Origin: Desulfobacterales bacterium | GTDB taxonomy: Bacteria > Desulfobacterota > Desulfobacteria > Desulfobacterales > UBA5852 | DNA length: 35,925 bases | NCBI GenBank assembly: GCA_030065275.1 | Contig: JASJCV010000001.1 | Location: forward strand, 1 to 35,925 | Direction: 5' to 3' | Shown here: piece after piece, positions 17,508 through 32,419 of the stretch | Position numbering within the stretch: the first letter of the stretch is position 1 | How the letters are laid out: every line of letters starts with the position of its first letter | The notes under the pieces: generated by a model | Databases searched by the model: none | What the model was told of the DNA's origin: nothing | Seen by the model: only the letters and a program-made list of their open reading frames with translations | Made by a program: the position numbers and the translations under genes

Positions 17508-18467
17508 TTATGCCGGATTCTGCTTCGCACGGCCGGTGGATTCCATTATTTCACGGGCCAGCGCCATATAGGCCTGCCCGGAATGGCTCTGGGCGTCGTA
17601 ATGGTAGACGGGCATGCTCATGATCTGGGCCTCCCGTAATCGTCCGTCGTGGGGGATGACCGTCTGATAAAGTCTTCCCCGGTAGAGTTCCTGCAATTTG
17701 GACTGGATCACGCAGGCCGCGGTTTCATCCGCGTTGAACATCGTGACCAGGATGCGGGCCTCGATCGCCGGATTGGTTTTGCGCCGTATGAGGTCGATGA
17801 TGCCCAGGATCTGATCGACGCCGTGGGTGGACAGGTAGTCGCACTGGGTCGGAATGATCACGTGGTCCGAGGCGGTCAGGGCATTCAGGGTGAAAAATTC
17901 GATCGACGGGGGGGTGTCGATGAGGATGTAGTCGTAACGGTCTTTCACCAGGTTGAGGCGGTCGTTGAGGATGTATTCGTAGTCGTCGGCCCCGAAGTAC
18001 TTCTTGTTGAGGAGCACCATGTTTTTGCTGGCCGGCAGGAGCCACATGTCCGGGTAGGGGGTTTCCACTACGGCCCGGTCCATGGCCTGGGGACCTTTCT
18101 GGAGCACGTCGTAGAACGAGGCGGCTTCGCGGGCGCCGAGGAGAATGGACAGGTTGGCCTGAACATCGAAGTCGATGAGCAGCACTTTTTTGCCGCGCCG
18201 CGTCAGGGCCAGCCCCAGGTTGAGGCAGGTCGACGTCTTGGCGACCCCGCCCTTCTGGTTGCTGACGGCGATCGTATTGCCCTGGTGGGCGATGTGCTTG
18301 GCGGCCGACAGGTCGACAAAGGGGATTTCCTGGATGCGCACCGGACGGTAGGCCGTGAAAACGTGCCGGCAGCGGGAGCAGCGCGCGGTGAAGCTTTTGG
18401 TGTTGGGCTTGATCCGATTCTCGTCCAGGCGGAAGCGGCTCTGGCATCTTTCGCAGATAACTATCAT
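17508..18467 (-). CDS. ParA/Soj-family ATPase with N-terminal MJ0042-like zinc finger
   Basis: MIVICERCQSRFRLDENRIKPNTKSFTARCSRCRHVF zinc finger followed by AVSNQKGGVAKTSTCLNLGLAL, LLIDFDVQANLS, ILIDTPPSIEFFTLNAL. Confidence 0.9.
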   Translation of the reverse strand: MIVICERCQSRFRLDENRIKPNTKSFTARCSRCRHVFTAYRPVRIQEIPFVDLSAAKHIAHQGNTIAVSNQKGGVAKTSTCLNLGLALTRRGKKVLLIDFDVQANLSILLGAREAASFYDVLQKGPQAMDRAVVETPYPDMWLLPASKNMVLLNKKYFGADDYEYILNDRLNLVKDRYDYILIDTPPSIEFFTLNALTASDHVIIPTQCDYLSTHGVDQILGIIDLIRRKTNPAIEARILVTMFNADETAACVIQSKLQELYRGRLYQTVIPHDGRLREAQIMSMPVYHYDAQSHSGQAYMALAREIMESTGRAKQNPA

Positions 18468-26964: not shown

Positions 26965-29580
26965 CTAAACCTCGTTTGCCGGAGCGGTTTCGGACGCGTC
27001 ACCCACCTTGAACTGTTCCACCTGACGGGTCAGGGATTGGGACAGCTTCTGCAGTTCGTCGGTGATTTCCACGACCACGCCCGCCCCTTCGCGGGTCTGG
27101 GCGGCGGCTTCGGCCGACTCCCCGGTGATCTCGGTGAGCTTCTGGGAACGCTCGGCCTGGGTGTCGGTCATGTCCCGCATGGCGTGGGTGCGTTCCACCA
27201 CACCCTGCATCTGCTGGCCGATTTCGCTCATTCCCTGGTTGGCGTTGACGATCAGCTCGGAAATGGCGTTCGACTTCTCCACCAGCGCGTTCAGGGCCGC
27301 CTGGGCGGCCGCACGGCGTTCACCCTGCTGACCGGCCATGTCGGCAATTTCGCGGGCCAGGTTGTTGAGGTCTTCCATCATGGTGTTGACCTCCTGGGTC
27401 CCCTTTTCGATGTTGTCCGCCGCACGGGCGATCTCCTGGATGGCCTGCATGTTGGTACCGCCACCCTGGGCGATTTTTTCCAGGGCCTGGCGGGAGCGGT
27501 CGGAGAGCTGGGTACCTTCCGCGACCCGGGCCGAAGAGTCTTTGATCAGCTGGGTAATCTCCTTGGCGGCTTCCGAGGAGCGCTGGGCCAGCTTGCCGAC
27601 TTCGTCGGCGACGACGGCAAAACCCTTGCCGTGGGCGCCGGCGCGGGCGGCCTCGATGGCGGCGTTCAGCGAGAGCAGGTTGGTCTGCTCCGCGATTTCG
27701 GTAATAACGGTGATGATTTCGGAGATCTGTTCCGAAGACTCGGCAATGGCGCGCATACCATCCACGGTGGCGGACACCGATTCGGTGCCCTCCTCCACCG
27801 CCTGGAGGGCGTCGCTGGCAAAGGTCATGGCGTTGGTGGTGGCGCCGGTGAGTTCCTGCACCGCCGTCTCCATGCGTCCGACGGCTTGGGTAACCGCCTC
27901 CACCTGCTCGCCCTGCTGCTGGGCGGTGGCCACAACCTTGGCGCCGGTTTCACCCATCACCTCCACGCGGTCGGTGGCGGTGTTGGCTTCTTCCACCTGG
28001 CTGGCGGAGGCTTCGGTGACCGAGCCCATATCGACCGTCAGGGATTCGATGTTGGTGTTGGAGATGTCGGCCGCTTCACGCTGGGATTCCGAGGAACCCG
28101 CGACCTCGCCGGCTGTGGCCCGCATGTCCTCCACGGTCTGCTGCATGATGCGCATCTGCTCGGCCTGGCGCTCGGCGCGCTCCCGGTTGGAGCTGGCACG
28201 CTGGGCCACGTCGCCCGAGTAGCTTTCCACGTCCCGGGCGGCCTTGGAGACGAGTTGGAAGGATTCGCGCAGCAGGCGCATCATCTTGTTGAACTCGCCG
28301 GCCATAATGCCGACCTCGTCCTTGCTGCCCACCGGCACCTCGATGGTCAGGTCGCGCTCGCGGGCCACCGTCCTTACGGCGTTGGCGATGGCGATGATGG
28401 GGTTGGCGATGCCGCGCGCCACCCATAGACCGAGCACACCGGTGATAAGGCCGGCCACGACGGCGATCGACCAGAGAACGACCTTGGAGCGGTCGCGGAT
28501 CTTTTCGATGATCGTGGCGGATTCGAGGTATTCCTCCTCGTAGGAACCGGCGCCGATAATCCAGTCCCAGGGTGCGAAATACATCAGGCGAACAGTCTTG
28601 TAGCGCGCCTTGGGGTCGCCCGCGTTCTTCCAGGGGTAGCGGTGCTCGGCCACTTCGCCCGGTTTCAGAACCTTGGTTTTGGCCACGATTTCCTGGATGA
28701 AGAGGTTGCCGTCGGTGTCCTTGGCCTGGGAGATGTCTTCGCCGTCACGGGTTCCGTTTTGGGAAATGACGTAGTGGCCCTTGCTGTCGAGCACGTACAC
28801 GTAGCCGGTCGTCCCCACCTTGATGTCGTAGATGGCTTCACGCAGACTCTTGACACTTTCCTGGGGCAGGCCCACGTAGAGCATGCCCACGATGCGCTTG
28901 TCCTTGCTGTAGATGGGCTCGTAGGCCGTCAGGTACCACTTGTTGACCACATAGGCGCGGCCGACGAAGGTCTGGCCCCGCAGCACGGTGCTGATGACCG
29001 GGTTGGGCTTGCCGTCCGGGTTGGTGCGCGGGATATAGGTGCCGATGGCGCGCGTGCCGTCGTCCTTGACCACGTTGGTGGCCACGCGCAGCATGTCTCC
29101 GCCGCTGTTCATGCGCTGGAAGATCGTGCAGGTGAGGTCTTCGGCCAGGTTGCGGACCTCGTCCACCACAGGCACCGAGGCCGTCAGGTCGGTGGTCTGG
29201 CCGAACCAGCTGTTGCCCACGAGCATCTTGGGAAGCTCCACCGGGACCATGGTCTTGGTGTACTGGTTGACCGCGTTCCAGGTGACGTTTTCGTAGGCGA
29301 AGGCGATGCCGCCGTTGTCCGTAACCACCCGGCGGGCCACGTTGAGGTCGCTGCGCAGGGATTTGCGCAGCAGTTCGTCCTGGGTCTGGACCATCCGGTA
29401 GACGCCTTCGGCGATGTGGTCGAGGTCGATGCGGGCCAGTTTGATACTTTCCTGCCGCGCCACCTCGAACGTCTCGTTGCTCTGCTTGGTCACGAAGATA
29501 CCGGCAATGATCAGCGGCACGAAGGTCGCGAACATACCGAGCATGACCAGTTTGGTTCTGAGTTTGAGGTCTCTAAGCAT
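26965..29580 (-). CDS. Methyl-accepting chemotaxis protein with extracytoplasmic Cache domain
   Basis: Periplasmic segment ([27 protein letters not shown]... [16 protein letters not shown]), HAMP, and signalling hairpin [48 protein letters not shown]. Confidence 0.93.
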
Positions 29581-30781
29581 GGGTCTTTCCTCCCAATCGG
29601 TGGTGTTGATTGATGAAAAGGGTTTTGATCGCCGTGGCGATTTCCGAATCGTTGAGCGGCCGGCCGCTCCGGCACAGGCGCAGGGCCGACAAGGCCATTT
29701 CCTTGAACAGGCAGGTCCTGGGGTCCTGGATCAGCACTTCGCCCCCGACGCGGGCGATTTCGGCGGCCCCCTCGGCCCCGTCCACGTCCTTGCCGGTCAG
29801 CACGACCGCGACCGTGCGGGCGGCCATGACCTCGGAAACCGACAGCATGAGCATGTTGATGGCTCCGCGGCGTTCGGGAAAAGGGGAGGGGTGGACGCGC
29901 AGGGACGTTCGGTCGCCGTCCCGCACCGCCGTGACATATTCGCTTCCCGAGGCCAGATAGCAGGTGCCCGCCTCGAGCGGTGTGCCGTCCGCGGCCCGCC
30001 GGACCCGCAACGCGCTGTTGGCGTCGAGGTAATCCACGAAAGCGTCGAGATGGGCCTCGGCGGCGTATAAAACCGCCAGGTAGGCCGCCGGCCAGGTTGG
30101 ATCGAGCTGGGGGATGATTTTCAGCAGGGCGCCGTAACCGCCTTCGGAGGCGCCTAAAACGACGCAGCGCTCGATGGCCTTGGCCAGCACCCCCCCATTC
30201 CGCGGGCGGGTGCGCAGCAGGCGCACGTTGTCCATCTTGACCCCGGCGGCCAGCTTGACCTTGTGCTTGATCAGGCGTTCCTGGTCTTCGAGGCTTGCGT
30301 TATCGCGCTGGGACGGTTTGGGCATGAAATCGATGGCGCCCAGACGCAGGGCATCGAAGGTCTCGGTGGCCCCGTCGCGGGTCAGGGCGCTGATCATGAT
30401 GGTCGGCGTGGGGCGTTTGATCATGATATGCTTCAGGGTGGACAGCCCGTCCATTTCGGGCATTTTGATGTCCAGGGTGATCACGTCGGGCACGATCGCG
30501 GCAAGCATGTCCAGGGCCTCGCGGCCGTTGGCCGCTTCGCCCACCACCTGGAACCGTTCGTCGGCGTCAAACATCTGACGGACCACCTTGCGAATCAGAC
30601 GGGAATCATCGACGATCATCAGGCGGATGGGCGTCTCGGCGGGTGCGGCGACCGGGGCGGGCGCGTCAGGGACCTTGAGGGTCTCCTCGCAACCGTCGCA
30701 GGCCAGCAGGGCCTCGCTGCCGCTGTTCTGCGGGCATCGGATCTCATGCTGCCGGCCGCACTCTTCACAAAAAATGATCAA
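29573..30781 (-). CDS. Zinc-ribbon + REC + CheB-like protein (copy 3)
   Basis: TTG start (30781) with an AGGGGAAA RBS gives [18 protein letters not shown]...[12 protein letters not shown] zinc ribbon; [37 protein letters not shown]; CheB-like [13 protein letters not shown]...[13 protein letters not shown]. An upstream ATG at 30823 is also open. Confidence 0.83.
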
Positions 30782-30977
30782 AACGTTTCCCCTGCCTCGG
30801 CCACCGCGTTTTCCAGGAGGCACTGCGGTCGGCGGCCCGTTATGTTGGCACCGGTCGAATGAAGGTTTACTGCTGGATTGGTTCTCAACATGCCTCGCTG
30901 TGTCTCGTCTCCCGTCTTATGTTTTCGACCGGATAACCCGGTGACTTGAGCGCCCGGGGTCTTCCGATCCATGGGAT

Positions 30978-31613
30978 TCAGCTCAGGGGCTTTTCCCGGA
31001 ACATCTTCAAAAGCAGCTGGTAGAGGTCCTCATCCCGGTGGTTGAAGCGAAACTCGCATTCCTTGAGATGCAGACCGAAGCGGTCCGTGACCGCCAGCGG
31101 CATCTTGAACATGCGTTGCTGGGTGAACCCCAGAAAGTCTTCGATCACGCCGCCGCAGGCGTTGCCGGGGTCGCGCTCGTCGCCGAAGGCCGTCAGGCCG
31201 TAAAGCCGCCGGCTTTCCATATCCACGATGCCGTCGTAGCAGGCCCAGCGCTCGGGCAGGCAGAGGGCGCCGCCGTTGCCGTTGTTTCGGAGGCATTGCC
31301 GCAGACGGGCCGAGGACTGGACCGGTATCAGGTCGGTGCGCACCTGCCGGCCGACTTCCTTGAGGCCGAATATGGGCGCTTTGCCGTTCGTGGTCTCCAG
31401 GAGCGCCAGCGGATGCTGACCGAAAGGCGACTGATGCACGCAGACGGTGTAAATGCGCTCGCGGATGCGAATCAGATAGCGATTGACCGTATTACGGTTC
31501 AGACCGGTCAGCGCGGCGATTTGCTGCGCATCGAGATCCAGGGCAAAATATCTGATTATTTTGCGGAATTTATTTTCGGAGATTTTCGAACGACAAACGT
31601 ATTTGTTTTTCAT
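30978..31613 (-). CDS. IS1595-type transposase-derived HTH protein, probably catalytically inactive
   Basis: N-terminal KNKYVCRSKISENKFRKIIRYFALDLDAQQIAALTGLNRNTVNRYLIRIRERI and C-terminal FGLHLKECEFRFNHRDEDLYQLLLKMFREKPLS match the IS1595-family transposase layout; catalytic Asp positions appear lost. Confidence 0.75.
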   Translation of the reverse strand: MKNKYVCRSKISENKFRKIIRYFALDLDAQQIAALTGLNRNTVNRYLIRIRERIYTVCVHQSPFGQHPLALLETTNGKAPIFGLKEVGRQVRTDLIPVQSSARLRQCLRNNGNGGALCLPERWACYDGIVDMESRRLYGLTAFGDERDPGNACGGVIEDFLGFTQQRMFKMPLAVTDRFGLHLKECEFRFNHRDEDLYQLLLKMFREKPLS

Positions 31614-31884
31614 GGTCGGTGGCCGTCTTTGCGCGCGATGAATGATGCTGTTCTGATCAGGTCCGGTGTGGGCACTTTAACCATATGAAATAAATATAAA
31701 TAATTCTGGGTTTATCGTTTCGCGCGCCCTTTCCGCTGCTATCGCCCCAAAATACGGGGTTTCACGCGTTTGCGGACGTGGTGTTCTGGGGAGCTTGCAA
31801 GCTTCGTGCCCGTATATAATTGTACACGATCTAGTGGTTCTGCCGGGTGTCGATATCCATCGGGTCTAAAAATGAAGGAAGGTG

Positions 31885-31923
31885 CTGACGGATTTTGTCA
31901 GTCGAATTGACAAAATCTGTCAG
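31885..31923. repeat. 16-bp near-perfect inverted repeat, 7-nt spacer
   Basis: ctgacggattttgtca (31885-31900) gtcgaat tgacaaaatctgtcag (31908-31923); one mismatch between arms. Confidence 0.9.
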
Positions 31924-32008: not shown

Positions 32009-32419
32009 CTAGTTGAGTTGGGAGGCGGAAATGTATTTCTGGAGCGCCTGATAATCGTCCGGATAGATGTCCACGAAAGTCACACCGATATCATAGCCGT
32101 CCTGGTCCGGACGCTCCTTGCACCAGGCCACCCGTGAGACGGCGGTGAGGGGGGCCAGGGCCTGACCGTCGTCGATGACGGCGGCATAGCTTCGTTTGTG
32201 ATGCTGCCAGCCCGTCAACTGGATTTCGAGGCCGATCAGGTCACCGGGTTTGAAAGGCGTCGGGCCGGTAAAGCAGATCCCGCCGGCGCTGATATTGACC
32301 CCGACGCCGCGCTGGATGTCTTCCGTCAGGGGATATTCGATCTTTTTGGCTTCGATGGTGACATCCTCGGAAATACGGTGGAATTTGCGCTGATCGCTGA
32401 GATGCTGATCCGTGGGCAT
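32009..32419 (-). CDS. PilZ domain protein
   Basis: DQRKFHRISEDVTIEAKKI and VNISAGGICFTGPTPFKPGDLIGLEIQL (RxxxR-like and (D/N)xSxxG motifs). Confidence 0.85.
   Translation of the reverse strand: MPTDQHLSDQRKFHRISEDVTIEAKKIEYPLTEDIQRGVGVNISAGGICFTGPTPFKPGDLIGLEIQLTGWQHHKRSYAAVIDDGQALAPLTAVSRVAWCKERPDQDGYDIGVTFVDIYPDDYQALQKYISASQLN

Follow-up and report, generated by a model that had tools for sequence, protein, structure and literature searches.

The DNA considered here, referred to as the window, is a stretch of 35,925 nucleotides from a Desulfobacterales bacterium. On its minus strand, between a PilZ-domain gene and a cluster of chemosensory genes, lies an open reading frame that begins with ATG, ends with TGA and encodes 211 amino acids (Table 1). 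The chemosensory cluster comprises genes for CheY/CheB, MCP, CheW, CheY, CheA, and further CheB proteins; between positions 17508 and 30823, three CheB-domain proteins are encoded, one of them fused to DUF4388, and the CheY/CheB protein heading the cluster has a CxxC zinc-ribbon-like N terminus (CEECGRQH...CDGC). An orthologue at this locus is carried by two species only, the source of the window and its congener G003, and the order PilZ, gene, CheY/CheB, and MCP is common to both.

About 230 bp of leader upstream of the gene and a palindrome beyond it are recognizable in both species, as would be expected for a gene with its own regulation, while the downstream spacer is not conserved. A promoter scan gave no match on the strand of the gene, and direct repeats in the leader were within the shuffled range and not significant. 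The palindrome has 16-bp arms with a TTTGTCA-N7-TGACAAA core, exact matches to which occur only twice per genome. It folds well as RNA (z of -3.9 in the window and -2.3 in G003) and may therefore be a hairpin or an operator. A former insertion sequence (IS) end acting as an operator was also considered on the basis of a weak upstream GGACCTGATCAGAAC similarity and was rejected, as this similarity is not conserved in G003.

Table 1. Features of the locus (positions in the window)
Feature	Position	Strand	Basis
IS1016-subgroup (IS1595 family) transposase-derived protein, catalytically dead, 211 aa	30978..31613	-	models, alignment, orthologue
Helix-turn-helix (N-terminal), aa 13-61; strongest constraint of all parts, omega 0.05 over aa 1-62	31431..31577	-	dN/dS, model, conservation
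Degenerate catalytic core, aa 63-165; D1 to L, D2 to E, N to G; omega 0.49 (weakly constrained)	31119..31427	-	alignment, dN/dS
C-terminal helices, conserved, IS1016 signature LHLKECEFRFN, aa 179-211	30981..31079	-	dN/dS, model, conservation, PMC12561309
Upstream leader, aligns to congener (67%, 230 columns); likely region of the gene's own promoter	31620..31847	-	comparison with G003
Palindrome CTGACGGATTTTGTCA-N7-TGACAAAATCTGTCAG between PilZ and the gene, also in congener; candidate operator or hairpin	31885..31923	.	sequence, RNA fold
Downstream neighbor, CheY-like receiver and CheB methylesterase; start probably near 30778	29573..30823	-	domains; syntenic in G003
Upstream neighbor, PilZ-domain protein	32009..32419	-	domains; syntenic in G003

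Family assignment and loss of the catalytic residues

The initial annotation described the gene as an intact, unframeshifted reading frame for an IS1595-type transposase with transposase-like termini, an altered core, and the same orientation as the che genes, and these descriptions hold up. The frame is uninterrupted over its whole length, and the gene shares its strand with the che genes, with a gap of about 200 bp to the CheY/CheB start. The two termini quoted there were found again, and they align with those of relatives in our genome collection, which are mostly intact IS1016-type transposases with about 40% overall identity to the window protein. Matches to family models fall under their cut-offs, both for the NCBIfam IS1595 transposase model NF033547 (E=1.1e-8, 35.3 bits, cut-off 75) and for Pfam DDE_Tnp_IS1595 (E=5e-4). 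Within the IS1595 family, the definition of which is credited to Siguier et al. 2009 in PMC12561309, the protein belongs to the IS1016 subgroup: it lacks an N-terminal zinc finger and has the C-terminal KECEFRFN block of the published signature, E-DESYFG(53)VYTD----Y(24)HINGIENFW..AK(14)..KECEFRFN (PMC12561309). The invariance of KECEFRFN among the relatives is partly an artefact, since the motif served as one search pattern, and protein-level searches also recovered KETEFRYN-like variants.

The rest of the signature of active elements, E-DESYFG...D...HINGIEnFW..AK, is not preserved. Of 80 aligned proteins, 53 keep D-D-N-E-K. The window protein has L-E-G-(E)-Q in place of the catalytic D-D-N-(E)-K, so that the E of NGIE is retained, a refinement of the initial description, and N and K are lost. 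The VDESYFG...RGKRGRG segment is replaced by and shortened to LALLETTNG, SDGW(R)GY has become LPERWACY, and HINGIESFWxxAK has become CGGVIEDFLGFTQ. With about 13 residues missing from the core, the protein has 211 amino acids, compared with about 224 in intact relatives.

An AlphaFold2 model (pLDDT 85, pTM 0.85) predicts three N-terminal helices of a helix-turn-helix (HTH) at residues 13 to 24, 29 to 36, and 40 to 61, with pLDDT values of >90, and two C-terminal helices; the middle region is less certain. This model and the constraint described below support an HTH fold with a maintained recognition region; matches to HTH profiles were weak and under cut-off. PDB sequence and fold searches with the protein returned no significant match. 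A control model of the intact relative L003 was poor in the same region, the catalytic segment; we therefore do not read the loss of a catalytic strand from the model and confine the claim of a lost active site to the sequence.

Most intact relatives are surrounded by 15-bp ends of the GGGTCATGACTAGAA type, the right one of which overlaps the TAG stop. No such pair of terminal inverted repeats is found around the window gene, which leaves the element without defined borders at which the 8-bp target duplication of active members would be expected, and the number of sites or motifs resembling these repeats across the genome is no higher than in the control. Moreover, a protein search and the IS1595 model identified the gene as the sole IS1595-family match in its own genome, which is 81% complete. 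Within that part of the genome, it is a single copy without signs of mobility, as a domesticated gene would be. Of the observations that the initial annotation listed as refuting its reading, neither intact catalytic residues nor flanking IS ends nor multiple copies were found.

Purifying selection at a shared locus

The G003 orthologue is 73% identical to the window protein and has lost the catalytic residues at the same positions. Catalysis was therefore lost at this one locus before the two species split, as is expected of a domesticated transposase. For this one species pair, in which dS is about 0.7 to 1.3 and approaches saturation in places, dN/dS (NG86) is 0.24 overall, compared with 0.09 to 0.20 for neighboring genes, and amounts to 0.05 for residues 1 to 62, 0.49 for residues 63 to 165, and 0.23 for residues 166 to 211. 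There are no indels in 211 codons, and 58 amino acid changes are observed, whereas 87 +/- 4 are expected under neutrality; in 2,000 neutral simulations the minimum was 70 changes, and the probability of finding no stop codon was 0.036. In this pair, the gene has thus been under purifying selection since its inactivation, and this selection is strongest in the HTH. The combination of a dead enzyme and a constrained HTH indicates that the presumed DNA-binding part is maintained and supports domestication, in agreement with the earlier proposal that the gene is retained under selection and is not a decaying IS.

The PilZ, CheY/CheB, and MCP neighbors are shared with G003, but the orthologous che cluster of G124, another genome of the order, has no such gene alongside. 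Lying beside che genes is thus characteristic of this genus and not of the protein class, and, given also the poorly conserved spacer, a tight operon with the che genes was rejected. The tie to chemotaxis is positional, and nothing beyond adjacency in two species supports a role in chemosensing. The IS1016 relative of G124 sits elsewhere, between CBS-domain genes (L116:6593-7273); its first catalytic Asp is replaced by Lys and imperfect terminal repeats remain. It possibly shows this process at an early stage.

Catalytically dead relatives in other phyla

Full-length dead IS1016-type proteins with conserved termini are encoded at at least 12 other loci in several phyla, with representatives in Desulfobacterota, Neisseriales, Snodgrassella, Campylobacterota, Acidobacteriota, Planctomycetota, and Bacteroidota. 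When dead-copy genomes were checked with the Chitinophaga protein, seven of eight had a single locus, and one Neisseriales genome had many partial copies. A homologue is present in 19 of 148 Chitinophagaceae genomes, one of which has two loci, and the catalytic signature is absent in all 19; Neisseriaceae, in contrast, have mostly intact elements. Three weak homologues outside Chitinophagaceae lack a clear C-terminal motif. The neighborhood prs-rplY-pth-FAH hydrolase-E1 dehydrogenase is shared by 12 of the 21 Chitinophagaceae loci examined, where gene names, as for all neighbors outside the window, were read from the sequence by eye without a domain search. At L175 to L193, L044, and L047, the dead gene either follows this series or, in Chitinophaga relatives, lies between genes for an MMPL exporter and SusC. 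Other recurrent settings were noticed: in two delta-group genomes (L060:4084-4734 and L068:2100-2759), the dead gene lies beside the same HMA-like small proteins and an ArsA-like ATPase, and in three Neisseriales-like genomes (L045, L051, and L058), a divergent gene adjoins it, the same one in all three (MNKVDNFRLKF..., by eye resembling nitronate monooxygenase).

The pattern of constraint recurs in these groups. The dN/dS is 0.05 between two Chitinophaga orthologues and 0.20 for the delta-group pair L060/L068. Information per column in the HTH and the core, respectively, is 2.59 and 3.10 bits in intact proteins, 3.19 and 1.73 bits in Chitinophagaceae, and 2.99 and 2.11 bits in the dead delta group; across dead groups, conservation of the HTH and the C terminus stays high or rises, while the core collapses.

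Trees from the conserved termini place the window and G003 proteins with dead proteins from three further Desulfobacterota genomes (97/78), and the other dead group does not divide the Chitinophagaceae proteins. In several well-supported pairings, a dead protein falls among intact ones (L055 with L029, L038 with L035, and L015 with L010), and inactivation therefore happened more than once; trees of the wider set require 7 to 11 changes. The AU test on the termini alone does not reject one common dead clade of the delta and Chitinophagaceae sets (p=0.23), and the trees are compatible with one early domestication as well as with several.

Interpretation and comparison with known systems

Taken together, we consider the gene to be probably a domesticated transposase that is catalytically dead, has lost its ends, and is kept as a putative DNA-binding regulator. 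An IS1016-subgroup element would have inserted ahead of the che cluster in an ancestor of the genus, after which the ends and the catalytic residues were lost and the protein was kept. The present protein would use its HTH to recognize a defined DNA site, and, judging from general transposase biology, its C-terminal half may assemble it into a multimer as in a transposase. On the same grounds, the protein may be a small transcriptional regulator that controls its own promoter and perhaps the neighboring PilZ and che genes.

The main rival is that the dead protein inhibits transposition, binding the ends of related IS1016 elements or poisoning transposase multimers and thereby shielding the genome. 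The parts retained are exactly those for end binding and putative assembly, and among related bacteria, intact IS1016-type elements are in circulation; a transient invader could be the target. This reading is weakened, and in our view unlikely, since the genome holds no other IS1595-family match, its repeat-like sites do not exceed the control, and most other dead-copy genomes hold that copy alone, the Neisseriales genome with many partial copies being the exception. Less probable still is a protein-protein role in the PilZ and chemosensory neighborhood in place of DNA binding: the conserved adjacency to PilZ and CheY/CheB in both species would fit, but the strongest constraint lies on the HTH, G124 has the che cluster without the gene, and dead relatives elsewhere adjoin unrelated genes.

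The two remaining explanations concern the core. Its degeneracy could mean that the gene is the remnant of a decaying IS with a frame that is open by chance, and the relatives L015, L021, and L096 do resemble dead elements at a less advanced stage of decay, L096 with imperfect ends that can still be recognized. For the window gene, this is very improbable and was rejected as strongly disfavored by the selection analysis of the pair, given the strongly constrained HTH over a branch of this depth, the absence of indels and stops, a number of replacements below the simulated minimum, and a conserved locus and leader. The lowest probability is assigned to catalysis that persists through relocated acidic residues. 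One signature E and other acidic residues remain and the D-to-E change at the second position is conservative; nevertheless, neither orthologue has the first Asp or the Lys, the segment bearing the first Asp is shortened, and constraint on the core is relaxed.

Beyond this locus, we see an even chance that IS1016-type transposases have been converted, repeatedly or once very early, into an unrecognized class of dead DNA-binding proteins in Desulfobacterota, Bacteroidota, Neisseriales, Campylobacterota, and Acidobacteriota, which would be inherited vertically at fixed loci (at one place in part of the Chitinophagaceae) and function in regulation or in protection from mobile elements. For eukaryotes, the domestication of DDE transposases is well documented, but to our knowledge few bacterial cases are known. 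In a search of the open-access literature, we found no published account of domestication or inactive transposases for bacterial IS1595/IS1016 elements. In several phyla, genes that automatic annotation would label transposase, or leave unnamed, behave as conserved genes of the host would. One can therefore test whether the recruitment of IS transposases, for regulation or for defense against those very elements, is a regular occurrence in bacteria.

With the IS1016-subgroup transposases such as ISApl4 (PMC12561309), the window protein shares the length class, the lack of a zinc finger, the N-terminal HTH, and the C-terminal LHLKECEFRFN block with its spacing; it differs in the loss of D-D-N-K, the absence of inverted repeats, its single copy at a fixed locus, and a score under the NCBIfam cut-off. 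The Merlin transposases of eukaryotes, for which domestication has been suggested in Stentor (PMC8101967), likewise have a DDE_Tnp_IS1595 domain, and several have lost the DDE motif, with no ends found and synteny conserved, but they are eukaryotic and longer. The TldR proteins (PMC13418256) are nuclease-dead, TnpB-derived, RNA-guided regulators in bacteria. Their fold is unrelated, and the window protein, a DDE transposase with an HTH, shows no sign of a guide RNA (no Rfam match). In both cases, however, a transposon-encoded nuclease has lost catalysis and is kept as a DNA-binding regulator, putatively so for the window gene, and TldR is the nearest functional analogy.
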